From Anaerorhabdus furcosa (GTDB lineage: Bacteria > Bacillota_I > Bacilli_A > Erysipelotrichales > Erysipelotrichaceae): DNA of 64,000 bases. This document shows positions 3,942 to 35,080 of this stretch, piece after piece. Position 1 is the stretch's first letter. Every line of letters begins with the position of its first letter. The notes below the pieces were generated by a model. The model had not been told where the DNA came from. It did no database searches and worked only from the letters and a program-made list of their open reading frames with translations. Location: contig NZ_FUWY01000008.1 of assembly GCF_900167375.1 (NCBI RefSeq), positions 31,664 through 95,663 on the forward strand, read 5' to 3'. The translations under genes and the position numbers were made by a program.

Positions 3942-3972
3942 ATTATAACAAACGACGACTTTCGTGTATAAT
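3942..3972. promoter_or_regulatory. overlapping divergent promoters with inverted repeat (sulfatase / LysR)
   Basis: A minus-strand promoter reads TATACA, 17 bp, TATAAT (-10 at 3942-3947) towards the sulfatase. On the plus strand TATAAT at 3967-3972 is placed as a -10 for the LysR gene; its -35 would fall on the other promoter's -10. The two outer elements form an imperfect inverted repeat, TTATAAC...TGTATAA. This is a plausible LysR operator that makes the two promoters mutually exclusive. The assignment rests on motif reading only. Confidence 0.5.
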
Positions 3973-4022
3973 ATGAATATAGATAATTTATCATAAGATT
4001 TTTGTTATGTATAGGAGGTATT

Positions 4023-4898: not shown

Positions 4899-4908
4899 GG
4901 AGGATACG

Positions 4909-5811
4909 ATGAATTTAAATCACTTGAAAGTATTTATGTATGTTTGTAAACATAACAGTATCACCCAAGCTGCAAAAGAATTAAATATGAAACAACCACA
5001 AGTATCCTATGCGATTAAAGAATTAGAACATGAATTAAATACTTGTTTATTTTTTCGCGTCTCTCGTCATTTAGAAATCACTGACAATGGAAATCGATTA
5101 CTTAGTTTAGCCATGCGATTATTTGAATTGTGTTCTGAGATGGATCTTGCAATGAAATCTAAGAATGAAGAAACTTCCATTACAGTAGGTGCATCCATTA
5201 CCTTAGGAAAGCATTTTTTGCCTATTTATATTAGTAAGTTCAATAAAATTTATCCAAATGTTCATGTTAATCTTATTACTGATACAAACGAAAATATTGT
5301 AAGCTTCATCCTTACGGGAAAAATAACACTCGCTTTTATTGACGCAAACATTGATGAGCCAAAACTCAATGTACAACAATATCACAAAGATAAAATTGTA
5401 GCTGTTTGTCACAAGGATCATCCTCTTGCAAAGAAAACATCTGTATCACTAAAAGACCTCTACAAAGAAGAATTACTCTTAAGAACTAATGGTAATGGTG
5501 ATCGAGAAGCTATTAATCATGCTTTTCAAACTCTTGGCATAACCTACAACCCTGTTCTTGAAAACGATATTGGTGTTCTTCTATTAAATGCTACAGCCAA
5601 CAATTTAGGTATTTCATTGTTACCTAAAAACATCGCATTTGACTATGCAAATACTGATGAGACAAAAATACTTGAGGTTGAGGAATTATTACTTGATCGC
5701 TACTTTAGTTCTATTCATCTAAAAGATGTAAAATTAAGTGATATTCTTGAAAACTTCAACAAAGTCAGTATTGATCAAGACAACTGGATGTATATTAAGA
5801 AACATGATTAA
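4909..5811 (+). CDS. LysR family transcriptional regulator (second of a tandem pair)
   Basis: A 300-aa LysR-type regulator clearly related to its upstream neighbour: same NHLKVFMYVCKHNSITQAA-type N-terminus, KQPQVSYAIKELE recognition helix, GASITLGKHFLP at the domain junction and FIDANIDEPKL in the effector domain, matching FIDADHPDDKL in the first copy. The ribosome binding site AAGGAGG precedes the ATG. This is a tandem duplication; the pair could form hetero-oligomers or answer two ligands. It ends at a bidirectional terminator shared with galK. Control of the divergent sulfatase operon is inferred from position only. Confidence 0.93.
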   Translation: MNLNHLKVFMYVCKHNSITQAAKELNMKQPQVSYAIKELEHELNTCLFFRVSRHLEITDNGNRLLSLAMRLFELCSEMDLAMKSKNEETSITVGASITLGKHFLPIYISKFNKIYPNVHVNLITDTNENIVSFILTGKITLAFIDANIDEPKLNVQQYHKDKIVAVCHKDHPLAKKTSVSLKDLYKEELLLRTNGNGDREAINHAFQTLGITYNPVLENDIGVLLLNATANNLGISLLPKNIAFDYANTDETKILEVEELLLDRYFSSIHLKDVKLSDILENFNKVSIDQDNWMYIKKHD

Positions 5812-7125: not shown

Positions 7126-7135
7126 AGCTTCTCTC

Positions 7136-8146
7136 CTAATTAAATATGAATTGTGTTTTATGATGCCAAACTTCACCTTTTCTTATAATCGGTTGAATTT
7201 GGTTTTTAGTTTGAATTGCGTTGGGATAAAATTGTGTTTCAAAACAAATTGAACTTCGCCTTGGAAATTCACCATTTTCTTTTGTATCGGTATAATTGCC
7301 TTCTAAGAAATTACTGGTATACATATGAAATCCAGGTAAATCAGAGAGGACCGTCATTTCAATCTCTTTTCCTTTGCATCTTGCGAATTCTCTAAAGCCT
7401 TCACCATCAACAAGGAAATGATGGTCATAACCATTACCATTTAGAAGTTGCTCTTCTTGATTGTTTATATCTTTTCCAATTGGTTTAAACGAAGTAAAAT
7501 CAAATGCTGTTTTCTTCACATCATAAACATCTTCATGTGTGCAACCATCAGCATCAACTCCTGCAAATTGAGTAGCATTGATTTTTACCTCATGTTCCAT
7601 TGCAGTCTTACTGGTTGGACCATCCAAATTAAAGAATGAATGATTTGTAACATTCAATAATGTATCTTCATCACTTTGCGCATCAACAATATAATTAAAT
7701 CCATTCTCGATTAATTCATAGGTTACCTTTACACGAACATTTCCTGGATAGCCTTCTTCCATGTGAGGGCTTACATATTCAAATGCAATTGAGTCTTCTC
7801 CTCCATGTGCTTTCCACATCTTCGTATCAAACCCAAATTCACCCCCATGCAAAGAATTTCCATTATTGTTAATTGGTACATGATAGGTTTTTCCATTTAA
7901 TTCAAATTCACCTTTACCAATACGATTGCATACACGACCAATTGTTTGTCCCATGTATTTTACTTGCGACTGGTACCCTTGAACATTTGTAAATCCTTGA
8001 ACAACATCAATTCCTTTATCCTTAATCACTAAAGATACTAAAGTTGCTCCATAATCTGTAACTGACATTTGAATCGTGTCATTTTCAATTGTATAAAGTG
8101 TTGCTTCCTGATTGAAGCTAGTAAGTCCAAATGATTTCATTTCCAT
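7136..8146 (-). CDS. galM: aldose 1-epimerase (mutarotase)
   Basis: A 336-aa galactose mutarotase-like protein interconverting alpha and beta anomers of aldohexoses. Family landmarks: NNNGNSLHGG with a substrate-binding histidine, the catalytic-acid segment NHSFFNLDG, YDHHFLVD, and the C-terminal FETQFYPNA whose glutamate is the predicted base. Its ATG overlaps the stop of rnc by one base (TAATG), so translation is coupled to rnc; a second ATG two codons on is an alternative start. It pairs with galK, supplying the alpha anomer that galactokinase uses. Confidence 0.94.
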   Translation of the reverse strand: MEMKSFGLTSFNQEATLYTIENDTIQMSVTDYGATLVSLVIKDKGIDVVQGFTNVQGYQSQVKYMGQTIGRVCNRIGKGEFELNGKTYHVPINNNGNSLHGGEFGFDTKMWKAHGGEDSIAFEYVSPHMEEGYPGNVRVKVTYELIENGFNYIVDAQSDEDTLLNVTNHSFFNLDGPTSKTAMEHEVKINATQFAGVDADGCTHEDVYDVKKTAFDFTSFKPIGKDINNQEEQLLNGNGYDHHFLVDGEGFREFARCKGKEIEMTVLSDLPGFHMYTSNFLEGNYTDTKENGEFPRRSSICFETQFYPNAIQTKNQIQPIIRKGEVWHHKTQFIFN

Positions 8147-8823
8147 TATTTCACCATCTTTTCAAAAGCATCTTTTGCTGCCATTTGTTCTGCTTTCTTT
8201 TTACTATTTCCAATTCCTTTTCCCAGTACAATATCATCCAATTTAACTTGGATTTCAAATCGCGGATTATTACTTGGTCCAGTCATTTTAATTACTTCAT
8301 AGGTAACTGTTTTTCTCGTATCAGACTGAACAAATTCTTGTAGTTTTGTTTTATAATCCATAACGATAACTTGATTTGGATCTTGTAAGCGCGAAGTAAT
8401 TACTTCATTTAGAATATTATCAATAGGGTCCATTCCACCATCCATGAATAAAGCACCCAAAAAAGCTTCAAACATGTCGGATACAATTGAATCTCTTTGT
8501 CTACCACCAGACTTTTCTTCTCCCGAACCTAGTAGTAAAAAATCATTTAATTTTAATTCTTTTGCATAAATAGATAATGCTTTCTCACAGACTAACTGAG
8601 CACGTAGTGTCGTCATATGCCCCTCGTCTAACGGTGGTTCAATTCTAAATATCTTATCAGAAATCCACAATTGAAGAACCGCATCTCCCATAAACTCAAG
8701 TCGTTCATTATCATTTTTGCTACGGTGTTCATTTACATAAGAAGAATGCATAAATGCTTGCATAATCAGAGGTTCATTATGTATTTCAATCCCTCTATTT
8801 TTTAACCATGATGTGATATTCAT
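8146..8823 (-). CDS. rnc: ribonuclease III
   Basis: A 225-aa double-strand-specific endoribonuclease acting on rRNA and mRNA precursors. The RNase III signature NERLEFMGDAVL is at residues 39-50, with metal-binding acidic residues, and the second acidic segment SDMFEAFLGALFMDGG follows. A double-stranded RNA-binding domain occupies about residues 155-225 (TKLQEFVQ... ending KKAEQMAAKDAF). Usual length. It lies 15 bp after recG, as in the extended Bacillus gene order where recG and rnc are near one another, and is coupled to galM by a one-base overlap. Confidence 0.96.
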   Translation of the reverse strand: MNITSWLKNRGIEIHNEPLIMQAFMHSSYVNEHRSKNDNERLEFMGDAVLQLWISDKIFRIEPPLDEGHMTTLRAQLVCEKALSIYAKELKLNDFLLLGSGEEKSGGRQRDSIVSDMFEAFLGALFMDGGMDPIDNILNEVITSRLQDPNQVIVMDYKTKLQEFVQSDTRKTVTYEVIKMTGPSNNPRFEIQVKLDDIVLGKGIGNSKKKAEQMAAKDAFEKMVK

Positions 8824-8838
8824 ATGTCATCTCCTTTA

Positions 8839-10857
8839 TTAATCCATGGTAGAAAGAGCGTTTTCATTGATTAAAAGCACTTTCTTAATTAATCGTTCAT
8901 TTTCAATATTCGTACTTTCATCCAAAATCTCTTGGACATCTTTTCTTGTTGTTTCAATGATTTTCGTGTCTTCTACTAAATTGCCCAATAAAAAGGCAGG
9001 TAAACCACTTTGTCTTGTCCCTAGTATATCACCAGGACCCCTTAAACGTAAGTCTTCAAAGGAAATTTCAAAACCATTGTTTGATTTTACTAAAACATTT
9101 AATCGTTCCAAACTCTCTTGTTCTTTACTATCTGTAAGTAAATAACATATCCCTTGGTGTGATCCTCTTTGTACTCTACCACGCAATTGATGCAATTGAC
9201 TTAGTCCAAAGCGATGGGCATCATAGATGATCATACATGTTGCATTGACTACATTAATTCCTACTTCAATTACAGTTGTAGAAACAAGAATTTGAATTTT
9301 ATTTTTCTTAAAATCTTGCATCACTTGTTCCTTTTCATCACTACTCATTTTGCCATGAAGAATACCCACTGTGGCAATCCCTTTAAATTGCTTTTGTAAG
9401 TTTTCATAAATATCCACAACATTTCGTGCTGAAAAGTTTTCACTTTCTTCAATTGCACTACAAACTACATAAATTTGTCGTCCTTCTTGAAGTATTTCTT
9501 TTACATCACTTAAGACACTTCGAAAGCTATTCTCTTCAATAAGAACTGTCTTTACTTCTTTTCTCCCGCTTGGCATCGTTTCAATCGTAGTGACATCCAT
9601 ATCACCATATAATGTATTAGCTAATGTTCTTGGAATGGGTGTTGCACTCATCAAAAGAAAATCTACTTTATCCCCTTTATCCAATAATTTCCTTCTTTGT
9701 TCAACACCAAATCGATGTTGCTCATCTGCGACAACAAATCCCAAATCTTTAAATACTACATCTGCTTGAATTAATGAATGCGTCCCTACTAAAATATCAA
9801 TTTTACCTTCTTTTAAATTTTCTAGAATTTCTTTTTTCTTGATGGTTGGTAGCGCTGAGTATAGAACTTCAATTTTTAAATCCGTTGAACGTAACAAATC
9901 TTTCAAAGATAGATAATGTTGTTTTGCAAGGATTTCAGTTGGAGCAAGTAATGCAGCTTGTTTTTTGGAATATGAACAAGCTACCATACCTAGTGCTGCA
10001 ACAACTGTTTTACCACAACCTACATCACCTTGTATTAAGCGATACATAACATGATCACTTTGTAAGTCTTCTAAAACATCATTTACTGCTTTCACTTGGT
10101 CTTTTGTAAGAGGAAATGGCAAATGATTCGCAAGTACAAAAACATCATCAAAATTAAAGTTTTTTCCTTGTTTGTGTTCAACCTTTTCATTTTGTTTCCT
10201 TATGAGTTGAATAGCTAAATGAAACTTTAAAAACTCTTCATATTTCAAGGTACGAATCGCTAAGCTAACATCAGTTGCATTCTCAGGAAAATGTATTTTT
10301 TCATAGGCATCTTTTTTATCTAATAAACGATATCGCTCTCTATACTTTGAAGGAACATCATTTTCAATTGTGGCTTTGCTATTATCAAAACAACGTCGCA
10401 GTACATCTTGCATGTTTTTTTGTGTTAAACCATATTTCAAAGGATAAACTGGTTGAATACCCAATTGTTCATTGAGTGGCCTAAAATTATATTGAATTGC
10501 TGTTACTTTACGATTACCTTCATATTTACCAATAATTGTAATAACTTGCCCCAATTCCATTTTATTAATCCATGGACGATTAAATAAAGTAATATCAAAA
10601 ACATCATCTTCATTCTCTACTTGGAATTTTGTCATTGTACGAGATCCTTTAAATCGAATACTTTTTGGATACGTAATAACGCGTGCCTCAAAGACAACTT
10701 TATCTTTTATTTGCCAATGATCATATTCTTTTAATTCAAGTTGTTCATAACGAAAAGGATAGTACGATAGTAAATCTTCTGCATCATATAGACTCATTTG
10801 ATTTAATATTTCAATTTTTTTAGGTGGTATCTTACACGCTTTCAATGAGAGTACCAT
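8839..10857 (-). CDS. recG: ATP-dependent DNA helicase RecG
   Basis: A 672-aa superfamily 2 helicase that remodels stalled forks and branched DNA. An N-terminal wedge/OB region is followed by the helicase core with Walker A GDVGCGKT near residue 280, the DEQH box in VVADEQHRFGVEQR, SATPIPRT, and the C-terminal QLRGRVQRG and GFEISFEDLRLRGPGDILGTRQSG segments that are RecG hallmarks. The start at 10857 is preferred to ATG at 10863: AGGAGG lies only two bases before 10863 but eight before 10857. It follows the LD-carboxypeptidase gene closely and is upstream of rnc. Confidence 0.96.
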   Translation of the reverse strand: MVLSLKACKIPPKKIEILNQMSLYDAEDLLSYYPFRYEQLELKEYDHWQIKDKVVFEARVITYPKSIRFKGSRTMTKFQVENEDDVFDITLFNRPWINKMELGQVITIIGKYEGNRKVTAIQYNFRPLNEQLGIQPVYPLKYGLTQKNMQDVLRRCFDNSKATIENDVPSKYRERYRLLDKKDAYEKIHFPENATDVSLAIRTLKYEEFLKFHLAIQLIRKQNEKVEHKQGKNFNFDDVFVLANHLPFPLTKDQVKAVNDVLEDLQSDHVMYRLIQGDVGCGKTVVAALGMVACSYSKKQAALLAPTEILAKQHYLSLKDLLRSTDLKIEVLYSALPTIKKKEILENLKEGKIDILVGTHSLIQADVVFKDLGFVVADEQHRFGVEQRRKLLDKGDKVDFLLMSATPIPRTLANTLYGDMDVTTIETMPSGRKEVKTVLIEENSFRSVLSDVKEILQEGRQIYVVCSAIEESENFSARNVVDIYENLQKQFKGIATVGILHGKMSSDEKEQVMQDFKKNKIQILVSTTVIEVGINVVNATCMIIYDAHRFGLSQLHQLRGRVQRGSHQGICYLLTDSKEQESLERLNVLVKSNNGFEISFEDLRLRGPGDILGTRQSGLPAFLLGNLVEDTKIIETTRKDVQEILDESTNIENERLIKKVLLINENALSTMD

Positions 10858-23916: not shown

Positions 23917-24495
23917 TTATTTAATTAATTTCAAACTATTATTTTGATAATATGAATTACTAATAAAGCCATAGAAATTTATATCAGAAATTCGATATTT
24001 AAAATATATTTCATCTTTATTTTGTTTATAATTTATTTTCAATTTTTCATCTTCCATTAAATCCACTAAACTATTAAAATCATATTCTAAGAAAATTGCT
24101 TCTTTCTTAGATATTTCTATCGCATACATAAGACTTCCATCAAAAATTGGAAATAATGCACTTTTATTCATTTCCATCATAGATGTATACATCCACGCAT
24201 TTTCTATACTATCAATTTCTTCAAAATCTTCGAATCTTTGATTAAACAAATCGATTGTTTGCTGTTTTGGATTATCTAGTAAAAACACAGCGACACCACA
24301 TAGGATTAACTTAAAAACTAAATACTTATCATTTTTTATAGATAGTAAATAATTCGCGAAAACAATACACATCATGAACATCATAAACCAAAACAAGAAA
24401 TTCAGAGTGAAATTATAAAACTTAATTTGCATCATAATGTTAGTTGTATAGATAAATAGGAACCCTAATAATAAAGAATAAATGTTTTTTTTCAT
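23917..24495 (-). CDS. membrane protein of unknown function (192 aa)
   Basis: Three hydrophobic segments in residues 1-95 are followed by a soluble domain of about 100 aa with no recognisable motif. It starts six bases after the end of the secreted 241-aa protein, so the two form a secreted-protein plus membrane-protein pair. Very low GC, like the other genes in this region. Not recognised. Confidence 0.72.
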   Translation of the reverse strand: MKKNIYSLLLGFLFIYTTNIMMQIKFYNFTLNFLFWFMMFMMCIVFANYLLSIKNDKYLVFKLILCGVAVFLLDNPKQQTIDLFNQRFEDFEEIDSIENAWMYTSMMEMNKSALFPIFDGSLMYAIEISKKEAIFLEYDFNSLVDLMEDEKLKINYKQNKDEIYFKYRISDINFYGFISNSYYQNNSLKLIK

Positions 24496-24501
24496 TTTTG
24501 A

Positions 24502-25227
24502 TTACATTGCTCCTGATTGGTACGGATAACTAGTAGTTAATGCTCTACAAGCTGCAGGATAACCATAATTACTTGGATCGCCTACCCAAAAATATGATTT
24601 TTTTGTAATTGTGGAACCAGTTTGTGTTCCTTTGCTCCAAGAACTTCCATCATATATGGCTTTAAATAATTTAATATCAGTTTTACTTGTCAAAATTGAA
24701 CATTGGGAGTACGTAGCCATGCTATAGGATATATATACATATTGCGGCGAGTTAAGTGAATCAACTATCAACGATCCCCAAGAAGTTATTAATCCTGGCC
24801 ACACCCCTATTGCAGAAGCAGCTAGTGCTACTGCTGTCGCAGGGCTATTGGTATAGTTCAAATTAACTAAAACCGGTAACAGTTGTGTATAGGAACTCCA
24901 TGTAGATCTAGGTTGAATAAGTTCTCTTTCTATTTCTCGAGTATCAATTTTATTAATTATAATTAAGTCCCCATTAACTTTTTCATAAATATAGTCATTA
25001 TATTTATAGAATTCATTAATCCCCTCTTTTCCTTCCACCGTAAATAACAACCCCTCTTCAACATTAAGATAATATATAAGTATCTCTTCTCCAATTTGAA
25101 TTACTTCTTTGGTTTTTTTCTCTTTTCCCACTATTTTTTCTTGTCCTTGTTCTGCAAGTAAATTTAATGGCATAATAAAACTAGCAATAAGCATTGATGA
25201 TAAAACTAAGCAGATAATTTTTTTCAT
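24502..25227 (-). CDS. secreted protein of unknown function (241 aa)
   Basis: A classical signal peptide (1-25, cut after NLLA) and a mature part of about 216 aa. Residues about 130-165 form a long small-residue-rich hydrophobic stretch (ATAVALAASAIGVWPGLITS), which may insert into membranes. The C-terminus is rich in Ser, Tyr and Thr. AGGAGGAAGC precedes the ATG. Not recognised. Together with the following membrane protein it could be an exported effector and its partner; there is no direct evidence. Confidence 0.75.
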   Translation of the reverse strand: MKKIICLVLSSMLIASFIMPLNLLAEQGQEKIVGKEKKTKEVIQIGEEILIYYLNVEEGLLFTVEGKEGINEFYKYNDYIYEKVNGDLIIINKIDTREIERELIQPRSTWSSYTQLLPVLVNLNYTNSPATAVALAASAIGVWPGLITSWGSLIVDSLNSPQYVYISYSMATYSQCSILTSKTDIKLFKAIYDGSSWSKGTQTGSTITKKSYFWVGDPSNYGYPAACRALTTSYPYQSGAM

Positions 25228-25346
25228 ATTAGCTTCCTCCTCATTTTTATTAAATTTAATCGCTAAATCTTTCTATTGATTAAATACATAAAGAATTTTT
25301 TACTTTCGAATCAAGTGGCTCTTGCAGTATTAGATTTTGTGTAACT

Positions 25347-25560
25347 TCAATCAATCATAAACCATACTTTATTGTCTCTCATATAATCAAAAACTTCTGT
25401 ATAATTATTATTTAAATATTCATCTTTTGTATTTAAACAAAATTGTTCTGTAATGATATTATTGTCACCATCATAAATTATATAGTTTTCATAATTATCG
25501 CCATAAAACTCTGATCATTTACAATCGTATTATTATCTAATATTAAAATTAGTTTTTTCC
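25347..25560 (-). pseudogene. frameshifted gene remnant
   Basis: On the minus strand one frame reads LILILDNNTIVNDQS and, after a frame change, continues FYGDNYENYIIYDGD up to ...RDNKVWFMID and a TGA at 25347-25349. The two pieces together look like the C-terminal part of one protein broken by an indel. No start or ribosome binding site is left. Identity unknown. Confidence 0.5.
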
Positions 25561-25584
25561 TTTGCAAACGTTTTAAATACAGAC

Positions 25585-25756
25585 AGTAGCCCAAAATAGA
25601 ATTCTAAAATACTCACTATTGATATTTACCAATGATAATACAAGTACTAATATTCCAACAATTGCATTAAAATTATACTCTATCGATGTCTTCTTCACAA
25701 AGAAATTTTTTGTGTTTTTCACACTATCTTTCAGAGCTAGTTTAAAATATTAAAAT
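25585..25756 (-). pseudogene. decayed partial copy of the 190-aa membrane protein gene
   Basis: About 172 bp closely matching 27464-27635, the 5' part of the intact 190-aa gene and its leader. In the copy, the start ATG is GTG, the ribosome binding site GGAGGA has become GAAAGA, and the reading frame ends at TAA after ILFWATVCI, about 49 codons in. It is therefore a truncated duplicate. It overlaps a second remnant frame on the same strand that ends at TAG 25737-25739 (segment YKKREPYLVELCNNRKFL). Confidence 0.8.
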
Positions 25757-25868
25757 CATATACTTTGCGAATTCTAGTTAAAAATTTTCTATTGTTACAC
25801 AATTCTACTAGGTAAGGTTCTCTTTTTTTATAACTGAATTCCTAACTGCTTGTGTTTACACATAATAT

Positions 25869-26141
25869 TCATACTATATCTTTCTTCTCAATAAATTTAA
25901 TAGAAGTCAATATAGTAATAATTCCTAAAACAATGAGAAATACCAATAATATATCATAAATGAAAAGTGATGTTTCCTTAAAAAATAAATCGAATTCACT
26001 TTTGAATGTAATTGAATTTACAGATATACCAGAAACATAAATCGCTACACCGATTAGTGTTCTCATTGATACTTGGATTAAAATGGCGATTGTTGATATA
26101 CATATTCCCATTTTAAATAATTCTATATTTTTTATTTTCAT
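25869..26141 (-). CDS. small membrane protein (90 aa)
   Basis: A 90-aa protein with two transmembrane helices (about 10-35 and 58-80) and a charged C-terminal end. The ribosome binding site is weak. It follows the secreted 147-aa protein by 24 bases, repeating the secreted-plus-membrane pairing seen on both sides. Not recognised. Confidence 0.6.
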   Translation of the reverse strand: MKIKNIELFKMGICISTIAILIQVSMRTLIGVAIYVSGISVNSITFKSEFDLFFKETSLFIYDILLVFLIVLGIITILTSIKFIEKKDIV

Positions 26142-26165
26142 TTATTAACTAAAATCTAATTACCA

Positions 26166-26609
26166 TTAGTAATTGTATTTAACATCCTGCGTAAGACCGA
26201 CAAGAACCTTTGCCGTTCCGGAATCTTCATATGTTCCAAAAAGATGTCTATCATACGAATAATTTTGATATTTAGAGAAATATGTAATTGTACATGATCT
26301 AACTGTTTTATTTGCGTAAGTTTTTGAATAAGTTATAGATGAACTAGTAGATAGACCAATTGTAGTGTTAATGTTTTTCGCTACTTCATAAGACCAACCT
26401 ACGGTCATTGTACTCTCATCTGTTCTACTTACATAAAATCGCTTGGATCCACCTGCTGCAACATCATCGCTCGATACAACAATATTATAGTCCGTAAATT
26501 GTGAAGTAGCTTTTATGTTTTTATTAGAATCTTCCGCATATGTAACTGTTGGAGTTAGAATTCTAGTAAATAAAAGTGTAGATAGTATAATTCTTGTAAT
26601 CTTTTTCAT
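26166..26609 (-). CDS. small secreted protein of unknown function (147 aa)
   Basis: A signal peptide (1-25, cut after VTYA) and a mature domain of about 122 aa rich in Ser, Thr and Tyr, beta-strand-like in character. Strong AAAGGAGGAAA ribosome binding site. TATAAT occurs at about 26663-26668 upstream on the minus strand. Not recognised; probably extracellular. Confidence 0.75.
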   Translation of the reverse strand: MKKITRIILSTLLFTRILTPTVTYAEDSNKNIKATSQFTDYNIVVSSDDVAAGGSKRFYVSRTDESTMTVGWSYEVAKNINTTIGLSTSSSITYSKTYANKTVRSCTITYFSKYQNYSYDRHLFGTYEDSGTAKVLVGLTQDVKYNY

Positions 26610-27028: not shown

Positions 27029-27601
27029 TCAAAATCTACTTTTTACAGAACTGCTCATAAGATCAGCTAGGTTTGTGGGAACATATTCAGAGTTCTTATC
27101 TTGGAAGACAATAGAATTATTTTTTGTCTGCAAGAAATTCAATATTTTTTGTGCTACATCATTATCTAGTACAGGAATCAAGATTTCTTGGAGATTTGAT
27201 TTAATATAAATCTTGTGGTTTCCCTTATATCCTGGACGTGTAATTTCAAACACATTTGAGTCATGTCTTGCAATTACAATATCTTTGTATTCAATAGCAA
27301 CATACTTCTTAAAGCTATATGCTAAAACTACATTTTCAAAGAACAATGCATTCTCAAATGTTTTGTAACTATCATCGACTAAATTACTTACACTCATCAT
27401 AAATTTATTTAATCTATTCAATTTAATAAGGAATAATATAACAATAATAAGTTCAAAACAAATAGTAGCCCAAAATAGAATTTTGAAATACTCACTATTG
27501 ATATTTGCCAATGATAATACAAGTACTAATATTCCAACAATTGCACTAAAACTATATTCTATTGCTGACTTTTTTACAAAGAAATTTTTTATGTTTTTCA
27601 T
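27029..27601 (-). CDS. membrane protein of unknown function (190 aa)
   Basis: Two transmembrane helices (about 15-60) followed by a cytoplasmic domain of about 130 aa that looks like a small beta-rich domain (VAIEYKDIVIARHDSNVFEI...). Good GGAGGATAGT ribosome binding site. It lies 27 bp after the secreted 247-aa protein and is probably the last gene of the agrD operon. A decayed partial copy lies at 25585-25756. Not recognised; an immunity-like role for the secreted neighbour is a guess from position. Confidence 0.75.
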   Translation of the reverse strand: MKNIKNFFVKKSAIEYSFSAIVGILVLVLSLANINSEYFKILFWATICFELIIVILFLIKLNRLNKFMMSVSNLVDDSYKTFENALFFENVVLAYSFKKYVAIEYKDIVIARHDSNVFEITRPGYKGNHKIYIKSNLQEILIPVLDNDVAQKILNFLQTKNNSIVFQDKNSEYVPTNLADLMSSSVKSRF

Positions 27602-27628: not shown

Positions 27629-28372
27629 TTAAAAACCTATACCTATTGCATTAACACCACTAGATAATACAGATAGAGTGGCATTCCCACTACTTGATGG
27701 AGTAACCTTTAATTGAAGATATGCTGAATAACTATACGCATCTTTATTAGCTGTATAACTATAAAATCCATAAGCACTAGAAGTTTTATTATTTCTAATA
27801 CTAGAGGTTTTATCAATTCCTCCCCAACCTCCAGTAAATTCTGCTTTTACAGAAGATATTACAAATTTAGAATCATCCATACTCCAAGAAATTGTATTAT
27901 CACAAGTTATCACGGTTCCGTGTCCTGTTGCAGAATATGAATATGATAACCTCTTTGTATAAGTTGTTGCTCTAGTCATACTTGAATTTTCAATTTCAAT
28001 TGTACCAACTATATTTGCTTTTGGGTCATACCCTTGTGCATATAATTGAGTACGCAATTCACCTGCAAATTCTGGAAATTCATTAGGAACAAGTTCGAGA
28101 ACAAATGCTGGATCCCATAATAAGTTTCCCTTTTCAAATTCATTCATTTTTTCAACTATTTGATTTCTTACTATCGCTTTTATCTCTTTATAAGTTAAGT
28201 TTGAAATATCCGATTGAGTTTTTATATTTGTTTCATTATCATTCAATTCAGAATACATACCATATGACAGTAATTTTTGTTTCAATACATCTTCATTATC
28301 TTCAGCAAAAACATTAGGTGTGATAAAAGTAAAAATTAACAATATGCTTAGTAACAACTTTATTTTTTTCAT
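27629..28372 (-). CDS. secreted protein downstream of agrD (247 aa)
   Basis: Signal peptide 1-23 (cut after NVFA), an acidic helical region about 24-125, and a C-terminal domain about 130-247 rich in Ser, Thr, Tyr and Gly (SYSYSATGHG, TGGWGGIDK) with a small-residue, hydrophobic end. AAGGAGAAG ribosome binding site. It starts 58 bp after the AgrD-like gene, so it should be on the same quorum-controlled transcript. Not recognised. It could be a large secreted bacteriocin-like effector; searching it against large secreted bacteriocins such as geobacillin 26 would test this. Confidence 0.78.
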   Translation of the reverse strand: MKKIKLLLSILLIFTFITPNVFAEDNEDVLKQKLLSYGMYSELNDNETNIKTQSDISNLTYKEIKAIVRNQIVEKMNEFEKGNLLWDPAFVLELVPNEFPEFAGELRTQLYAQGYDPKANIVGTIEIENSSMTRATTYTKRLSYSYSATGHGTVITCDNTISWSMDDSKFVISSVKAEFTGGWGGIDKTSSIRNNKTSSAYGFYSYTANKDAYSYSAYLQLKVTPSSSGNATLSVLSSGVNAIGIGF

Positions 28373-28430: not shown

Positions 28431-28538
28431 TTAATATTTTTCTGGTTGATACCAACCAAATGCTGACATAGTTCCATTTCCTACAACTGCAACAAACATC
28501 AACACAGTACCAAGAAAGTTTAAAATTTTCTTTTTCAT
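28431..28538 (-). CDS. agrD: AgrD-like cyclic lactone autoinducer peptide precursor (35 aa)
   Basis: A 35-codon gene with a perfect AAAGGAGG site before the ATG at 28538. Layout matches AgrD precursors: an amphipathic, basic N-terminus (MKKKILNFLGTV), a hydrophobic helix, then SAFGW (25-29) followed by YQPEKY. Clostridial AgrD proteins typically carry a five-residue ring ending in an aromatic, followed by a YQP-E tail. Here the ring-forming residue would be Ser25, giving a lactone rather than a thiolactone. AgrB, AgrC and AgrA are encoded 4-6.6 kb away. The promoter carries the same repeats as the modified-peptide operon. A longer overlapping frame at 28369-28599 lacks these features. Confidence 0.85.
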   Translation of the reverse strand: MKKKILNFLGTVLMFVAVVGNGTMSAFGWYQPEKY

Positions 28539-28569
28539 ACTCTGCCTCCTTTCTATTTTCTTCATCATT

Positions 28570-28638
28570 ATCATATATAAATAAATCAAAGATACGCAAT
28601 GGGTTTGGTTCGAATAGGCAAATTCTTGGTTTGAATAG
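28570..28638 (-). promoter_or_regulatory. agrD promoter with tandem AgrA-type repeats
   Basis: Minus strand: CTATTCAAACCAA (28626-28638), 8 bp, CTATTCGAACCAA (28605-28617), 5 bp, TTGCGT -35 (28594-28599), 18 bp, TATGAT -10 (28570-28575). The repeats are 21 bp apart, two helical turns, as expected for LytTR dimers. The same arrangement occurs before the CCCG-peptide gene. Confidence 0.78.
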
Positions 28639-28660
28639 ATATATATAAGTTTAGTTAATC

Positions 28661-28681
28661 AAAAAAAAAAAAAAAAAAAAA
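28661..28681. repeat. 21-base poly-A tract
   Basis: An uninterrupted run of 21 A, 23 bp upstream of the distal AgrA-type repeat. Homopolymers this long slip during replication. Confidence 0.9.
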
Positions 28682-28730
28682 CTAAACCATACTCACCTTT
28701 TATAATCTAAATATATTGAAGCAGGATAAA

Positions 28731-28771
28731 ATACTCTTAGATAAGGCAAAGAATCTAATATCTAAGAGTAT
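28731..28771 (-). terminator. 12-bp perfect inverted repeat downstream of the exporter gene
   Basis: ATACTCTTAGAT (28731-28742) and ATCTAAGAGTAT (28760-28771) pair perfectly around a 17-base loop. It lies about 200 bp after the ABC exporter stop and before the agrD promoter, so it may end the peptide operon; there is no U tract, so a protein-binding site is also possible. Confidence 0.5.
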
Positions 28772-28967
28772 CGATTGTTCAATAGACTATCATTTACTAT
28801 GCTTCACTTTTACTTTTATTTCATGTGCGCAAGATATTGAGTTCTTTTAATCATTAATAATATTTTTACATGAAGAATAATTTTTTTGTTTAATAGTATT
28901 TATCTTTACCACTTAATCGAAGATAATGCTGTATAATAGATAATTACTTCACGTGACTATTAGCAAC

Positions 28968-30623
28968 TTATAAAGTTTGGTTGAGAATGAGATTTTTGAA
29001 TTGCTTGCATTCATTATAAAGTTTTTGATAATCTCCTTTCATAATGATTCTACCTTCTGAAAACAATATAATTTCATCAAATTGCATCATGACTTCCTTA
29101 TCAATTCTATGAGTTACAATAACTATCGTTTTATCCAGTTTTAGAATACGTTGTTCTATCATACTAGATGAAATTCTATCTAACGCTGAAGTTGGTTCAT
29201 CCATAATGATAACATTAGAATCTCTAAGTATAGCTCTCGCTAATAAAATACGTTGTTTTTCTCCACCAGACAACTTATTAGAATCAATGTGTGAAGTTAA
29301 AGACAATTTTCTTTTTTTCATAATATCAAGAAAACCCGTTATATCAAGGACTTTTTCAACATCAACCCAATTATATTCATCACTCAACAATGTAACATTA
29401 TCAAAGATGCTTCCTTCAAATATAAAATCACTTTGAAGAACAAAACTTACTTGATTTCTAAATGAACTTAGATTAATATTTTTGGAATTAATCGTTGAAA
29501 TAGTATAATCACCTTTGCAATCTTCACAAGGATTCAAAAGCAAATGCAAAGTTGTAGATTTTCCAGAACCACTTTCTCCAACAATGGCATATTTTTTATT
29601 TTTATATATTTCTAGATTTACATCCTTAATCGAGAACTCAGAATTTTCTTTGTGAAATGATACATTTTTCAAACTAAATACTGATTCGTTAAGCGATGTA
29701 ACTAAAACTTCATTATTTTTAAAATCTATGTTAATTAAGTAATTAAGTCTTTCTCTTATTTTCTTCGTTGATATAATTTTATTAATATCTTTAGCTATAT
29801 TTGTAATAGGAAAAACAATATTATTAGACAATTGAATTGATGCAATAAGGATTCCAATTGTCAAATATCCATTTAATGTCATATATGTACCAATGATAAA
29901 TAGTGATATAAACACAGAGTTACTGAATAACGATGATAACGCAGAATACTTGCTTAAAAAATTATTATAATCAATGTTTTGCTTTTCAGAATTATTGACT
30001 TTTTCCTCAGCTTTTTTATAAAACTGCTTATGAGCATTATATCCTCTTATAGTAAGCAATCCAGAGATAACATTTTTTATAAAATTCAATTCATTGATTT
30101 TTGTATTTGAAACATCCATTTTCATTTTTGAATTTCTTGTAGATATTATCTTTGTTATAATCAAAGGCATACTCGAAAGTATTACTGTGATTAGGAAAAT
30201 AATTATTGAATAATTCATTAAAATGACAATAGACGATATGCTCACAATTAATCCTCTAGCAATATTTATAATGCTTTTTAAGTAATCATTTTCATAACTG
30301 ATCATGTCATTCGTTAATATTGATAAATAGCTATCACTGCTATTATTATCTTCTCCATAAATTAAATTTTGAAGAATCTTACATTTCATGTCTTTAATAC
30401 TTCTAAATATATATTCATTCTGGAGTAATTCAGCAATGTACTGTGATATAGAAAACCATACCAATAATATTATCGAGATAATTACAATTGATTTATATAA
30501 TTCTAAATTTTTATATACTACACTATCAATTATTTTTTGTTGAATCACAGCAAAAAGCACCATATTAAATGAATCAAACATTGCGAATATAATAGTAATC
30601 ACAAATAGTATTTTATTTTTCAT
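28968..30623 (-). CDS. ABC exporter (fused membrane and ATPase domains)
   Basis: A 551-aa half-transporter: six transmembrane helices in the first 290 residues, then an ATPase domain with Walker A GESGSGKST near residue 350, Q-loop VSFVLQSDF, signature LSGGEKQRILLARA and DEPTSALD. There is no N-terminal C39 peptidase, so it does not cut the leader itself. Ribosome binding site GGAGGTAAAT. It is downstream of the radical SAM enzyme in the same direction with a 92-bp gap. By context it exports the modified peptide and may give self-protection. Confidence 0.9.
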   Translation of the reverse strand: MKNKILFVITIIFAMFDSFNMVLFAVIQQKIIDSVVYKNLELYKSIVIISIILLVWFSISQYIAELLQNEYIFRSIKDMKCKILQNLIYGEDNNSSDSYLSILTNDMISYENDYLKSIINIARGLIVSISSIVILMNYSIIIFLITVILSSMPLIITKIISTRNSKMKMDVSNTKINELNFIKNVISGLLTIRGYNAHKQFYKKAEEKVNNSEKQNIDYNNFLSKYSALSSLFSNSVFISLFIIGTYMTLNGYLTIGILIASIQLSNNIVFPITNIAKDINKIISTKKIRERLNYLINIDFKNNEVLVTSLNESVFSLKNVSFHKENSEFSIKDVNLEIYKNKKYAIVGESGSGKSTTLHLLLNPCEDCKGDYTISTINSKNINLSSFRNQVSFVLQSDFIFEGSIFDNVTLLSDEYNWVDVEKVLDITGFLDIMKKRKLSLTSHIDSNKLSGGEKQRILLARAILRDSNVIIMDEPTSALDRISSSMIEQRILKLDKTIVIVTHRIDKEVMMQFDEIILFSEGRIIMKGDYQKLYNECKQFKNLILNQTL

Positions 30624-30715
30624 ATTTACCTCCAGATAATAGTTTAAATATATAAATAAGAATAAACTTCTAATTTGAAAACTATATAAATTAAAGATAC
30701 TTAAAGTTTTCAGCC

Positions 30716-32047
30716 TTATTTATTTTGGACTGCTATTCTTATGTTTTTCTTGAAATCTTTCAAGTCTTCTCCTTTAATTAGGCACAATTTTTCGATAATT
30801 CTATTAAATAGTATTTTTTCAGTATAACATCTACTATCGATTGGTATATTAATGGAATCATTATTAAGGAAATTTAATCCTTTGCACCAAACACCACAAA
30901 AATTCCTTACAGTGCACTCTTTACAGGTATCAACATTGGTACGATATGCATTAAAATCACTAAATAAAGACGATTCTCCACAATTCACTTTAAAACTATC
31001 TATATGCATTCTATAGTTTGTATCGTTAACAAACATTTGGCAAGGATAAATATATCCATCATTTGAAATAGTTATAGATCTACCTGACCCACAATCTTTT
31101 TGATATATTTTATTAATAATACCGTACACCATTTTTAATATTTTAAGATTCAAATAACTTTTCCCATGAATGATGTCATCAAAAAATATATCAACAAACT
31201 CTTCAAATAAATTCTTAATTTTTTTTAATTCCTTAGAATTATATTTTATTGATTTATCTACTACTAAAAATGTCGCATATCCATTGATTTCAAATCTTTC
31301 AAATATTTTCAACCATTTTTCAGCGCAACCTTTACTGTAATGTTTTATATGCTCATCTGTTATCGTCATCTCAATAGTCGGCTTAATTCCAATGAAATTG
31401 AGTTCATCAATAAAGTGACTAACAATATCAAAAGTCCCATGATTATTTGAATCTATACGATTTATATCATTAATATCCTTTGGACCATCTAAACTTACAG
31501 TAATTTTAAACTTTTGTTTTTTTAACATTTCAAATATCTCTGGATTCGTTATTGTTCCATTTGTAACGATTGAATATTCATGATACTTTTGTTGTTCATA
31601 TAGATTATCTATGAATTTTTTAATTTCTATAAAATTTAATAATGGTTCTCCTCCAAAAAAGGAAATAGTTTTTATTCCACCACTATATTTTCTTGAAATT
31701 TCATTATAATATTTTAAATATTTATTGTAGTCAAAAAATTTATTTACTAATTGACTATTATATGTACCTTCATTAGCATAACAATATTTGCATTTCATAT
31801 TACAACACTCTGATGACATAAACTGCAATGATGCTAATGTATTAGTAACCTTTAATTGATTTTTACTTATGTCGCAAGATTTGTCTATATATTCATTAAT
31901 CTCATCATTAATAATTTCAATAGAGTTTTTGGTAAGTTTAAAATCTTCTCTAGATAGGTTCATGAAAATTCCTGTAGATATGTGATATAGAAAATTTTCA
32001 TCTTCACCAATCAACATATACTCATCATTTTTAAATTTTTTCGCCAT
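30716..32047 (-). CDS. radical SAM/SPASM peptide maturase
   Basis: A 443-aa enzyme. Residues 1-75 resemble a PqqD-like peptide-recognition region. The radical SAM cluster motif CNMKCKYC gives C82, C86 and C89, and FFGGEPL follows. The SPASM domain supplies C319, C336, C356, C375, C378, C384, C388 and C407, enough for auxiliary iron-sulfur clusters. Such enzymes install thioether or C-C crosslinks in RiPP precursors; others mature sulfatases. Its place 71 bp after a 29-codon Cys-rich peptide gene, and before an exporter, argues for peptide modification. No other function is supported. Confidence 0.92.
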   Translation of the reverse strand: MAKKFKNDEYMLIGEDENFLYHISTGIFMNLSREDFKLTKNSIEIINDEINEYIDKSCDISKNQLKVTNTLASLQFMSSECCNMKCKYCYANEGTYNSQLVNKFFDYNKYLKYYNEISRKYSGGIKTISFFGGEPLLNFIEIKKFIDNLYEQQKYHEYSIVTNGTITNPEIFEMLKKQKFKITVSLDGPKDINDINRIDSNNHGTFDIVSHFIDELNFIGIKPTIEMTITDEHIKHYSKGCAEKWLKIFERFEINGYATFLVVDKSIKYNSKELKKIKNLFEEFVDIFFDDIIHGKSYLNLKILKMVYGIINKIYQKDCGSGRSITISNDGYIYPCQMFVNDTNYRMHIDSFKVNCGESSLFSDFNAYRTNVDTCKECTVRNFCGVWCKGLNFLNNDSINIPIDSRCYTEKILFNRIIEKLCLIKGEDLKDFKKNIRIAVQNK

Positions 32048-32083
32048 ATATTTCTTGATCCTTTCACCTATAATTCATAAAAT

Positions 32084-32106
32084 GGGAGAATTTATTAGAT
32101 TCTCCC
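32084..32106 (-). terminator. hairpin between precursor peptide and radical SAM gene
   Basis: GGGAGAAT (32084-32091) and ATTCTCCC (32099-32106) form an 8-bp stem with a 7-base loop, 13 bp after the peptide stop. The following sequence is only ATTTTAT, so it probably acts as a partial terminator or mRNA stabiliser, raising precursor over enzyme. Confidence 0.65.
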
Positions 32107-32118
32107 TGTTTTTTAATT

Positions 32119-32208
32119 TTATCCACAGCAACAAACTGCAATTCCAGCTGCGAAATAATCATCAAGTTCTACATCTGCTTCTATACTAAAATCAACTATT
32201 TTTTCCAT
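32119..32208 (-). CDS. RiPP precursor peptide with C-terminal CCCG (29 aa)
   Basis: A 29-codon gene with an excellent AGGAGGTGA site before ATG 32208. The N-terminal two-thirds is acidic and leader-like (MEKIVDFSIEADVELDD). The C-terminus is FAAGIAVCCCG, with C26, C27 and C28 as three consecutive cysteines. It is the first well-supported gene upstream of a SPASM radical SAM enzyme and an ABC exporter, so it is the likely substrate. The cysteines could be thioether-linked to residues of the FAAGIAV stretch; that is inference. I do not recognise the peptide family. Confidence 0.85.
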   Translation of the reverse strand: MEKIVDFSIEADVELDDYFAAGIAVCCCG

Positions 32209-32240
32209 TATGTCACCTCCTCTCAAATTAAGTCATTCAT

Positions 32241-32366
32241 CTATTTACTAGTACTTAAATACTGCTTTATTGAATTAATACGGGCTAAACGATGATTTAT
32301 TTCTATTTCATAAGAAGGAATAAATATTATTTCTATTCCAAATAAAACAAAAGTTCTTTCTTTCAT
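32241..32366 (-). CDS. possible small ORF in leader of the RiPP transcript (41 aa)
   Basis: A 41-codon frame (MKERTFVLFGIEIIFIPS...) between the predicted promoter and the precursor gene, on the same strand. It has only a distant AGGAT upstream and no good ribosome binding site. It could be a small accessory peptide or merely an open stretch in a long leader. Confidence 0.3.
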   Translation of the reverse strand: MKERTFVLFGIEIIFIPSYEIEINHRLARINSIKQYLSTSK

Positions 32367-32398
32367 TTAATTGATTTTTTATCCTAAACTTTAAATAC

Positions 32399-32466
32399 AT
32401 CATAGTTATTTAATCTGTTCAAAACAAGGTTCAATGCTCGAATAGTCATTATTTTGGTTCGAATAG
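32399..32466 (-). promoter_or_regulatory. RiPP operon promoter with tandem AgrA-type repeats
   Basis: Minus strand: CTATTCGAACCAA (32454-32466), 8 bp, CTATTCGAGCATT (32433-32445), 5 bp, TTGTTT -35 (32422-32427), 17 bp, TATGAT -10 (32399-32404). Geometry matches the agrD promoter. On the plus strand the 17-mer TCGAATAGTCATTATTT is repeated exactly at 32438 and 32459. Predicted start near 32392, leaving a leader of about 185 bases. The region also lies upstream of agrA, which could be autoregulated. Confidence 0.78.
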
Positions 32467-32476
32467 TCATTATTTC

Positions 32477-32493
32477 AAATCACACAGTGATTT
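32477..32493. promoter_or_regulatory. short dyad upstream of agrA
   Basis: AAATCAC-ACA-GTGATTT, a perfect 7-bp inverted repeat directly beside the tandem repeats and 43 bp before the agrA start. Possible operator; nothing further is shown. Confidence 0.35.
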
Positions 32494-32536
32494 AATCATG
32501 ATAAAATTAAATTATATACTTGGGAGGAAATTTAAA

Positions 32537-33232
32537 ATGATAAAAATCGCAATAATTGATGATGACAATTTATTTATTTCTCTTTGTGAAGAGTATTTTA
32601 AAAATACAGATAAATACATCATCATTCCATACTCTGATTCTAAGTTATTTTGCGAAGAATACTTTTCTAATAGCTTTGATGTAATATTTTTGGACATAGA
32701 AATGCCTTTTTTTAGTGGATTAGAGGTTCATGAATTTTTGAAAAATAACAATTCTACATGCTTAATTATTTTTGTATCAAATCAAGACAAATACATATTA
32801 AACTGCTTTGATATCAATGTAATTGGGTTCATTCAAAAATCGAAAATTCATTTACAATTACCTACTGCTTTAAATAAAATCGAAAATATTTTCATGCATT
32901 CAACTTTTACTTTTCAAACAAAAAATGAGTTTATTAATCTCTCGAAAAATGAGATATGTGTTATTGAAGTTGTTAATCGTAAAATTGAATTGCATACAAA
33001 TAATCAAATTCATATACTAAAAAATGGAAAAATAAGTACAATATATTGTCTTTTAAATGATGATTTTTTCTTGATTAATCGATCAACAATTATAAACATG
33101 CATAAAATTATATCTATTACAGGAAATCAAATTTTTATCAAAAACATAAAAAAAGCTTTCCTACTAAGCAAATATAGAAAAAAAGATTTTTACTCCAAAT
33201 ATTTCAGTTTAATAAAAGCGAGGAATTTGTAA
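32537..33232 (+). CDS. agrA: LytTR response regulator, AgrA-like
   Basis: A 231-aa regulator: receiver domain (1-120) with acidic residues D8-D10 and phospho-acceptor D53 in FLDIEMP, and a LytTR DNA-binding domain (about 125-231) with FFLINRSTIINMHKI. The start at 32537 follows GGGAGGAAATTTAAA; the frame is open from 32498. It is first in an agrA-agrC-agrB operon. LytTR proteins bind pairs of direct repeats two turns apart, which is what the two peptide promoters carry. Confidence 0.92.
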   Translation: MIKIAIIDDDNLFISLCEEYFKNTDKYIIIPYSDSKLFCEEYFSNSFDVIFLDIEMPFFSGLEVHEFLKNNNSTCLIIFVSNQDKYILNCFDINVIGFIQKSKIHLQLPTALNKIENIFMHSTFTFQTKNEFINLSKNEICVIEVVNRKIELHTNNQIHILKNGKISTIYCLLNDDFFLINRSTIINMHKIISITGNQIFIKNIKKAFLLSKYRKKDFYSKYFSLIKARNL

Positions 33233-34512
33233 TGATTATATTGAATTTTATTTATTGTTTTGTCGAGCTAAATACATTGTTTATCTTATGCAATATTTTC
33301 ATTGATAAAAAATACGGTGATTTGATTAATGGTTTTACCATATCTTTATTTTCTATTATTAACTTTTTGATAACTCAAATATATCCAAATACTTTAGGAA
33401 CAATTTTTCTTGTATTATTTGCAACTATTATGTGTTTTATACTATTTCAATACAAAATCAAAGAAATTATTTTCCTATCCTTTATATTTTTTATAGTTGT
33501 TGGAATAATTTCCACCATTACAATTAATATTATTTCATTAACATCTGGTTTATCATCACATGAATTACTAAATAATTCATTAATTTATTTATTTGGTGGC
33601 ATATTTAATAAACTAATCCCCCTAGTTCTTGTATTTTCAATTAGAAAATATAGAAAGAATAATGAAATTATTGAAATACAGAATATCATAATCTTTTTTT
33701 CATTAATCATTTTTCTCTTTATCATAATTGTCGCACAATATTCTCTCGTATTGACTATTCGAGATGAAAAATCAAGAATTTTATCTCTATTAATTTCATT
33801 ACTATTAATAATTATTTTTACTATTATAGTAGTTATTTTATCCAAGTATAATAACTTACAAAAAAATAGCTTAACTTCACAATACAATAATAATATCCTA
33901 GCACTCTACAAAGACTACGAAATTAACTTAATTAGAAATAGAGAGGAGCTTATTATGATAAAACACGACTTAAAACACCATGATCAATTATTTAAAACAC
34001 TAATTCTTGAGAAACACTATGATAAAGCAATTAGCTCTATTAATCAATTGATCGAAAAAACAAATTCTATATCATCAACGGTATTTAGTAATAATATTGT
34101 ATTAGATAGTATTATTAATAATTTTATTACTGAATATTTAAACATCAAATTTACAATAAATATAAATACTTCTTTATCTTTGCTAGATGAGTTGGACACT
34201 TGCATTTTATTTTCAAATTTGCTAAGTAATGCAGCACATAGTGCACTAAAATCAGATAAAAAAATTATTGAACTTATAGTATTGGAAAATGAAAACTTCT
34301 ATGTAATTGAAGTAATAAATTCAATGGAATTTGAATTTATTGACATTAATATCACTTCAAAAAGAAAAAATAGCAATCACGGATATGGTCTAAAAAATAT
34401 TTACTCCATTATCCACAAATTTAAAGGAAATTATCATATTGATCAAACTAATCATCTATTTAGCTTTAAAATATTATTTCCTAAAGGAAGTATTCAAAAT
34501 GAAAAAAATTAG
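33232..34512 (+). CDS. agrC: sensor histidine kinase, AgrC-like
   Basis: A 426-aa kinase with six or seven transmembrane helices in residues 1-205 and a HPK10-type cytoplasmic part. The phospho-acceptor is His245 in KHDLKHH, the N box is NLLSNAAHSA (N333), and the G box is HGYGLKNIYSI. Its ATG overlaps the agrA stop (TAATG). It is expected to sense the AgrD-derived cyclic peptide at the cell surface and to phosphorylate AgrA. Confidence 0.92.
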   Translation: MIILNFIYCFVELNTLFILCNIFIDKKYGDLINGFTISLFSIINFLITQIYPNTLGTIFLVLFATIMCFILFQYKIKEIIFLSFIFFIVVGIISTITINIISLTSGLSSHELLNNSLIYLFGGIFNKLIPLVLVFSIRKYRKNNEIIEIQNIIIFFSLIIFLFIIIVAQYSLVLTIRDEKSRILSLLISLLLIIIFTIIVVILSKYNNLQKNSLTSQYNNNILALYKDYEINLIRNREELIMIKHDLKHHDQLFKTLILEKHYDKAISSINQLIEKTNSISSTVFSNNIVLDSIINNFITEYLNIKFTININTSLSLLDELDTCILFSNLLSNAAHSALKSDKKIIELIVLENENFYVIEVINSMEFEFIDINITSKRKNSNHGYGLKNIYSIIHKFKGNYHIDQTNHLFSFKILFPKGSIQNEKN

Positions 34513-35080
34513 CGAGAAAATTGCAATTTACATCAATGATAATGTTAATCAGTCATTTCCATTAAATAAATTAAGATATGGTATCGAATTATTTCTTAGT
34601 CAATCCATATTAATAATAAGCATGGTCTTGATTTCCTTGATGATAAACAAATTAAATTCTGTAATGCAATTTATGATTCCATTAATATTCATTAGAACTT
34701 TTTGTGGTGGATATCATACAAAAACATTTTTTGAATGCTTCATAATCACAAATAGTATTTGTTTTTTCAGTGTATTCTTTGCAGAGTATTATATAAATCC
34801 TATCTTCTATCTATTCCTATCGATTATTTCCTTAATTATTATTTTCATATTTACTCCTCTTATTAATCACGATACAAATCTACCGCGGAAAAAGATAAAT
34901 TGTTTCATTGCGTATATAATCTCAAGTTTTTTCTCATTATTTGTATTACTTCCTATTGATATCTTAAATATAAATAAAAACATTATCTCACTGGTTTTAG
35001 TAGCTGTTGCAATTTCGTTATTAATTCAATATTTTATAAAAAAAAATAGAACATTCTATCTTTTGCAATTATTTAGTTAA
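34499..35080 (+). CDS. agrB: AgrB-like peptide-processing membrane endopeptidase
   Basis: A 193-aa membrane protease with five or six helices. The AgrB signature RTFCGGYHTKTFFEC has catalytic His73 and Cys80. AgrB removes the C-terminal tail of AgrD and forms the (thio)lactone ring. Start at 34499 has AAAGGAAG upstream and overlaps the agrC end by 14 bases. No agrD gene is adjacent on this side; the only AgrD-like gene is at 28431-28538 on the other strand. Confidence 0.92.
   Translation: MKKISEKIAIYINDNVNQSFPLNKLRYGIELFLSQSILIISMVLISLMINKLNSVMQFMIPLIFIRTFCGGYHTKTFFECFIITNSICFFSVFFAEYYINPIFYLFLSIISLIIIFIFTPLINHDTNLPRKKINCFIAYIISSFFSLFVLLPIDILNINKNIISLVLVAVAISLLIQYFIKKNRTFYLLQLFS

Follow-up and report, generated by a model that had tools for sequence, protein, structure and literature searches.

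Several streptococcal peptides that are ribosomally synthesized and post-translationally modified (RiPPs) by radical S-adenosylmethionine (SAM) enzymes stand under the Rgg/SHP peptide quorum system. In the accessible text of PMC8092268, SHP/Rgg controls wgk, and one predicted site is found at both the shp and the wgk promoters. Here, we describe a locus of Anaerorhabdus furcosa in which a radical SAM RiPP operon (precursor peptide, enzyme and exporter) adjoins the split genes of an agr quorum system. It lies at positions 28431..35080 of the window, the 64,000-nucleotide stretch of contig NZ_FUWY01000008.1 that was analysed, and probably reaches further left, judging from two genes that closely follow agrD (27629-28372 and 27029-27601). 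Like the wgk/tryglysin, streptide and streptosactin systems as presented in that accessible text, the locus joins a short precursor gene to genes for a radical SAM enzyme and a transporter, all of which a peptide quorum system would control, and one predicted regulator site is common to the signal and RiPP promoters (PMC8092268). The signals differ, that of Rgg/SHP being a linear peptide re-imported to the cytoplasmic Rgg, whereas that of the window is a predicted lactone sensed outside by AgrC. None of the larger frames at the locus was seen to encode an Rgg-type regulator beside the cassette.

The agr genes themselves have been tied to modified peptides in other bacteria. According to the accessible part of PMC10301443, agr systems belong to lanthipeptide clusters in some clostridia, and agr control of epidermin in Staphylococcus epidermidis is cited there; the A. 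furcosa locus has in common with these cases that agr is tied to the production of a modified peptide. The same partial text describes CA_C0082, a LanM-like protein without conserved catalytic residues that is encoded behind agr in Clostridium acetobutylicum, in a genome said to hold no other lanthipeptide genes; a figure legend names a radical SAM protein among the neighbouring gene products (PMC10301443). Here too, a RiPP-type enzyme gene sits beside an agr locus. The lanthipeptide cases are unlike the window in their lanthipeptide chemistry and, for epidermin, by the cited title, in a control placed elsewhere than at a shared promoter element. That title, of a 2003 study by Kies, reportedly places agr control of epidermin at precursor processing, and a 2020 study by Chen is said, again by its title, to concern SCIFF ranthipeptides in clostridial quorum sensing. 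Full-text searches, mostly of non-subscription journals, gave no account of agr control of a radical SAM RiPP among the papers listed, and "agr" is absent as a whole word from PMC13361665. The original prediction knew of no agr system controlling a peptide of this kind; its novelty is lowered by the epidermin precedent cited in the accessible part of PMC10301443. Quorum control of radical SAM peptides is already documented for the streptococcal Rgg/SHP systems, and agr control for a lanthipeptide. The parts are ordinary and the wiring is uncommon.

A promoter element shared by agrD and the peptide operon

Open reading frames and family searches verified the gene content of 28431..35080, and every gene of the original prediction was present: an AgrD-like gene, a 29-codon gene for a peptide ending in CCCG, a SPASM radical SAM enzyme, an ATP-binding cassette (ABC) exporter and agrA-agrC-agrB. 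On the minus strand, the gene for the 29-aa precursor (32119..32208, an open frame with a AGGAGGTGA ribosome site) is followed by those for a radical SAM/SPASM peptide maturase (30716..32047; 443 aa, PF04055) and an ABC transporter with membrane and ATPase domains (28968..30623; PF00664 and PF00005), predicted to be an exporter. This operon runs divergent from agrA (32537..33232, plus strand), which encodes a response regulator (PF00072) with a LytTR DNA-binding domain (PF04397), agrC (33232..34512, plus strand), which encodes a membrane GHKL sensor kinase (PF14501), and agrB (34499..35080, plus strand), which encodes a predicted AgrD peptidase/cyclase (PF04647, 80.8 bits, cut-off 23). The AgrD-like gene, agrD, lies beyond the exporter gene (28431..28538, minus strand) and encodes a 35-aa signal precursor, MKKKILNFLGTVLMFVAVVGNGTMSAFGWYQPEKY, which matches TIGR04223 at 31.4 bits (cut-off 19).

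As in canonical agr systems (agrBDCA), AgrB, AgrD, AgrC and AgrA are thus all present: an AgrB with His and Cys (H73 and C80, of catalytic type, are invariant among nine aligned AgrB), an AgrD precursor, a GHKL kinase whose N-terminal half has seven hydrophobic spans, and a LytTR regulator. Unlike the canonical order, agrD (28431-28538, minus) is not contiguous with agrB (34499-35080, plus); it lies at least 4 kb off on the other strand, and the remaining order is A-C-B. The AgrD core, S-AFGW-YQPEKY, also departs from the canonical type in that the ring residue is Ser and not Cys; the whole AgrD contains no cysteine. In the S. aureus agr signal, the ring residue is Cys.

The element that joins the two parts of the locus is a tandem 11-bp repeat with a period of 21, 32 bases in total, which lies ahead of both agrD and the peptide operon. 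Predicted operator 1 (28607..28638, minus strand; CTATTCAAACC-N10-CTATTCGAACC) precedes agrD and predicted operator 2 (32435..32466, minus strand; CTATTCGAACC-N10-CTATTCGAGCA) precedes the peptide operon. On the minus strand, 7 bases separate each operator from a TTG-type -35, with TATGAT behind it, the predicted core promoters being TTGCGT - 18 - TATGAT for agrD (28570..28599) and TTGTTT - 17 - TATGAT for the peptide operon (32399..32427). We take the period of 21 to agree with direct repeats of the LytTR type.

A degenerate pattern, written from the two window sites themselves, matched the window twice (0.02 matches expected), and the 2.4-Mb genome contained three perfect sites and one chance-like site with three mismatches. 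When the agrD site alone was the query, with up to 3 mismatches over the whole genome, the same three places were recovered and the reversed control gave none. The promoter layout is alike at all three perfect sites. The third (locus L089) stands about 70 bp before a 35-codon AgrD-like frame with 60% identity to AgrD, in which the WYQPE end is lost (GWYQPE to GRCQLE) and which gives no TIGR04223 match: evidently a decayed second agrD that has kept a perfect copy of the element. The decayed gene lies at 1327-1434 of L089, and a secreted 114-aa protein is encoded further downstream at 384-728. Among the 272 genomes of the family, 17 matched the element at up to 2 mismatches; outside the source genome the 18 sites all had 2 mismatches, compared with about 20 in the reversed control, and are noise. 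On this sequence evidence, the agr genes and the peptide operon share a promoter element beyond chance.

Of 315 genomes searched in the order, 55, source genome included, gave AgrC matches at E 1e-12, and we examined the three best other AgrC neighbourhoods (L134, L135 and L136). L134 and L135, both of a single different genus within the family, carry agrA-agrC-agrB-agrD as a single block. Their AgrB and AgrC are related to those of the window, and their AgrD core is S-QWGW-YQPEED, compared with S-AFGW-YQPEKY in the window. Before agrD, both contain CTATTCGCTCC-N10-CTATTGGYTCC at the same distance from TATAAT. In L136, agrD is placed before agrA and an element of the same type was not found. 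Because the L134 and L135 sites had first been picked by their likeness to the window element, a partly circular choice, we turned to a blind design: all agrB-agrD DNA of the two loci was aligned only to each other and divided into 83 blocks of 32 bp, each of which was converted into a matrix and scanned over both strands of the window. Ten of the 83 blocks gave the peptide-operon and agrD promoters the top two ranks, and the 8 top-scoring blocks all did so; the top block scored 23.3 and 19.5 at these promoters and 10.3 at the next place, and the best block matching elsewhere scored 17.0. This result indicates that the element is an old feature of the agrD promoter in this agr type, also present on the peptide operon. 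The gene layout, the near-unique shared element and the equivalent element ahead of agrD in L134 and L135 can be read directly from the DNA.

Taken with the contiguous blocks and the AgrD cores of L134 and L135, the blind test makes agrD very likely the cognate signal, relocated away from the agr block. The modified CCCG peptide might instead be the ligand of AgrC, with AgrD a second or relic signal, since agrA is the direct divergent neighbour of the peptide operon and agrD is displaced; we regard this as highly improbable, as the related AgrC and AgrB of L134 and L135 are accompanied by a similar AgrD, and a peptide gene of this kind is missing there.

The peptide operon is probably under the same regulator as agrD. 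We consider it likely that AgrA binds the shared 32-base repeat and turns on agrD and the peptide operon when the predicted AgrD lactone accumulates. In orientation and spacing, the intergenic operator fits the peptide operon, thus agrA-agrC-agrB would be transcribed from a predicted promoter of their own. AgrB would cleave AgrD and cyclise it to a lactone at Ser25, the likely ring being S-AFGW; AgrC would sense the lactone and AgrA bind the repeat. The agrD gene would be amplified, probably along with the downstream genes for a secreted protein (247 aa) and a membrane protein (190 aa), and the peptide operon would come on with crowding, together with the signal. The enzyme would then introduce cross-links, most likely thioethers, at the C-terminal cysteines of the 29-aa peptide. 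The product, which may be an antimicrobial or a further signal, would leave the cell through the ABC protein. That everything forms one circuit had been proposed in the original prediction, and the idea has gained the shared promoter element and an AgrD that matches contiguous A-C-B-D loci; lactone formation, AgrA binding, activation and peptide modification are still what we infer. A fuller version is somewhat doubtful on balance, namely that an agr circuit captured a radical SAM RiPP, an agrD promoter element conserved across genera driving an unclassified PapB-like maturase that knots three adjacent cysteines at the C-terminus as well as, along with agrD, a secreted/membrane pair, with several density-triggered outputs.

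If agr does drive radical SAM peptides, a widespread lactone system would be a handle for waking silent operons, and a synthetic lactone could induce production. The element would also serve as a searchable signature of one agr type in the family, marking its targets. Moreover, since the displaced agrD has retained the element, simple promoter reporters could test the wiring.

A different regulator of the genome could also bind the element, for example an AgrA encoded at another agr locus (L083, L084 or L086), given that the source genome has five AgrB matches, several of them followed by LytTR regulators. The chance of this seems slim: the genome scan gave no element match at those loci, and in L134 and L135 the element adjoins an agr set like that of the window. 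The further agrB genes of the source genome lie in L083, L084, L086 and L087, and LytTR regulators come after three of these genes. In L086 the AgrB match is interrupted by in-frame stops, and L087, at a contig end, has an AgrD-like 36-aa frame beside AgrB. A tandem repeat before agrB of L083 is notable (such a repeat occurs in 3 of 200 shuffles), that of L084 is weaker and not notable (32 of 200), and none of this kind was found in L086.

The precursor peptide and its predicted maturation

The precursor, MEKIVDFSIEADVELDDYFAAGIAVCCCG (29 aa), ends with three adjacent C-terminal cysteines. Its gene is separated from the enzyme gene by 71 bp, within which lies a weak hairpin with a weak T-tract (32084..32106, minus strand), a possible partial terminator that is not significant by itself, two terminator-like sites being found where 1.5 were expected. 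In an alignment of 23 sequences, the radical SAM cysteines C82, C86 and C89 of the enzyme are invariant, as are the SPASM cysteines C319, C336, C375, C378, C384, C388 and C407. The operon therefore shows the marks of a radical SAM RiPP system: a CxxxCxxC motif, SPASM cysteines, a short adjacent precursor gene and a transporter.

The enzyme is nearest to the ranthipeptide maturases PapB and CteB. PapB is its best curated model (NF047865), and CteB (5why) is the nearest solved fold (TM score 0.66 by query length) to its predicted structure, for which the mean predicted local distance difference test (pLDDT) score is 84.7; by sequence, the closest solved relative is 5wgg. It differs from these enzymes in scoring far under the PapB cut-off (147.1 bits, cut-off 340), which places it outside that family, and in its substrate, since the cysteines of the window precursor are adjacent and theirs are spaced. 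It also falls under the cut-off of the GggB model, and the exporter scores 182 bits with the model of the streptosactin exporter GggC, under the cut-off of 750. At the N-terminus of the enzyme, which we looked at for a RiPP recognition element, the model has a small strand-rich domain (block pLDDT 47-77). The likeliest product is a thioether on the terminal cysteines. The exporter has no peptidase domain, and no leader protease gene was recognised within the peptide operon.

That the radical SAM enzyme modifies AgrD itself, yielding a doubly modified autoinducer, might be suggested by the position of agrD, which adjoins the cassette and not agrB. We find this hard to credit: a separate precursor gene with a strong ribosome site stands directly before the enzyme gene, AgrD has no cysteine, and L134 and L135 have a similar AgrD and no enzyme. 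Between operator 2 and the peptide gene, a 41-codon frame (32241-32366) was rejected as a gene, with no good ribosome site and no NCBIfam match, and the leader RNA of the peptide operon folds no better than chance (168 of 200 shuffles were as good).

Relatives of the enzyme and of the agr genes

A protein search that scored the 7,996 candidates with most words in common returned as best enzyme relative P0002, from an Anaerorhabdus sp. (52% identity), Anaerorhabdus being a genus of Erysipelotrichaceae; the other 101 relatives at E 1e-30 were at most 37% identical. An AgrB relative at 47% is named Erysipelotrichaceae bacterium. At E 1e-50 the enzyme matched only the source genome among the 294 genomes of the order, and with P0002 as query at E 1e-35 the one match among the 272 family genomes was again the source genome. 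Plasmid and phage records (73 and 30, respectively) gave distant enzyme matches, all under 60% identity.

In named genome contigs, at least 498 enzyme relatives were confirmed and 80 loci were kept. A complete absence of such peptides and agr genes around relatives of the enzyme would have told against the original prediction, but relatives do occur with short Cys-ended peptides, and the nearest named one, L003, with agr genes. When 48 of the 80 loci were considered, short frames with a ribosome site and at least two C-terminal cysteines lay near the enzyme in 27; some of these frames are plainly chance, and about 12 presumably are SCIFF-like peptides. An AgrB profile found AgrB in one locus, L003, whose enzyme is the nearest named relative among the matches listed (33%); the AgrB of L003, itself part of the profile, had already been found with the window AgrB alone at E 1e-4. 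L003 carries agrC and agrA homologues beside the enzyme, and its genome has exactly one AgrB (PF04647), about 1.4 kb from the enzyme; a PF04647 search of 12 of the 80 genomes found AgrB in 8. No AgrD was found in L003 above the cut-off. The region around its enzyme (6697-10537) may encode an AgrD that went unrecognised (...GKSIIAGMFEFEIPKEC...); it also contains a metalloprotease-like gene, which weakly matches daptide/LiaK proteases, and a peptide ending in GSIGCCNN.

In two further loci, L004 (...HCLGLLACC) and L079 (...ACGGMACGNVIC), the order is peptide-enzyme-exporter as in the window. An HTH_3 (helix-turn-helix) regulator lies upstream in L004, L056 and L079, with tetratricopeptide repeat matches under the cut-off in L056 and L079. 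With AgrB in one of 80 loci and these three relatives next to HTH regulators instead, the pairing of agr with the enzyme is not general; the peptide-enzyme-exporter cassette looks like a module placed under different regulators, agr in this case. L015 has five tandem precursor genes (6800-7685; 39-44 aa, three ending in ...FGIICGGGCWGIGC..) before a related radical SAM enzyme. It also has a GHKL kinase and LytTR regulator pair (3360-5375), which we discarded as an agr case, as the locus has no AgrB.

Several of these observations weigh against control of the peptide operon by agr. A tandem repeat is not rare in itself, 39 and 59 of 200 shuffles of the two regions having one, so the weight rests on the sharing of the element. 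L134 and L135 are close relatives, worth little more than one witness, and both, like L136, carry agr without these peptide genes; a 72% AgrC relative (P0105) comes from a contig of 9.6 kb, a length shown by no enzyme relative of the protein search. Conversely, most enzyme relatives are without agr nearby, L003 has agr and no tandem repeat of this kind, and the enzyme and exporter score under the cut-off of every listed named NCBIfam model. The full combination was seen in the source genome only. There might instead be two independent systems lying side by side in a low-GC island, the peptide operon being controlled by something else: related agr loci lack the peptide genes, related cassettes have HTH regulators, and the GC content of 23.9-35.1 kb is 25.5%, compared with 32.3% in the rest of the window. 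The low GC content is likewise consistent with acquisition. We judge independent systems unlikely in view of the shared near-unique promoter element and the blind test, and no HTH regulator was seen among the larger frames of 23.9-35.1 kb.

Genes behind agrD

The transcript of agrD probably continues into two further genes, a possible second output. A 247-aa protein with a hydrophobic, signal-like N-terminal segment (27629..28372, minus strand) is encoded 58 bp behind agrD, with no terminator-like site between, and is probably co-transcribed with it. After a further 27 bp, which contain a GGAGG site and again no terminator-like site, comes the gene for a 190-aa protein (27029..27601, minus strand), predicted to span the membrane twice and probably the last of the transcript. 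The 247-aa protein was found in one of the 272 family genomes, that of the source.

Past this transcript, at 23917-26609, lie two more pairs of secreted and membrane proteins in tandem (241 + 192 aa and 147 + 90 aa). No NCBIfam family was above the cut-off for the 247-, 147- and 90-aa proteins, nor any Pfam family for the 247-, 147- and 190-aa proteins, and a PHROGs search of the neighbouring proteins gave weak matches only, to proteins of unknown function. The three neighbouring secreted proteins are alike only in their signal-like starts. The pairs at 23917-26609 are possibly toxin/immunity-like.

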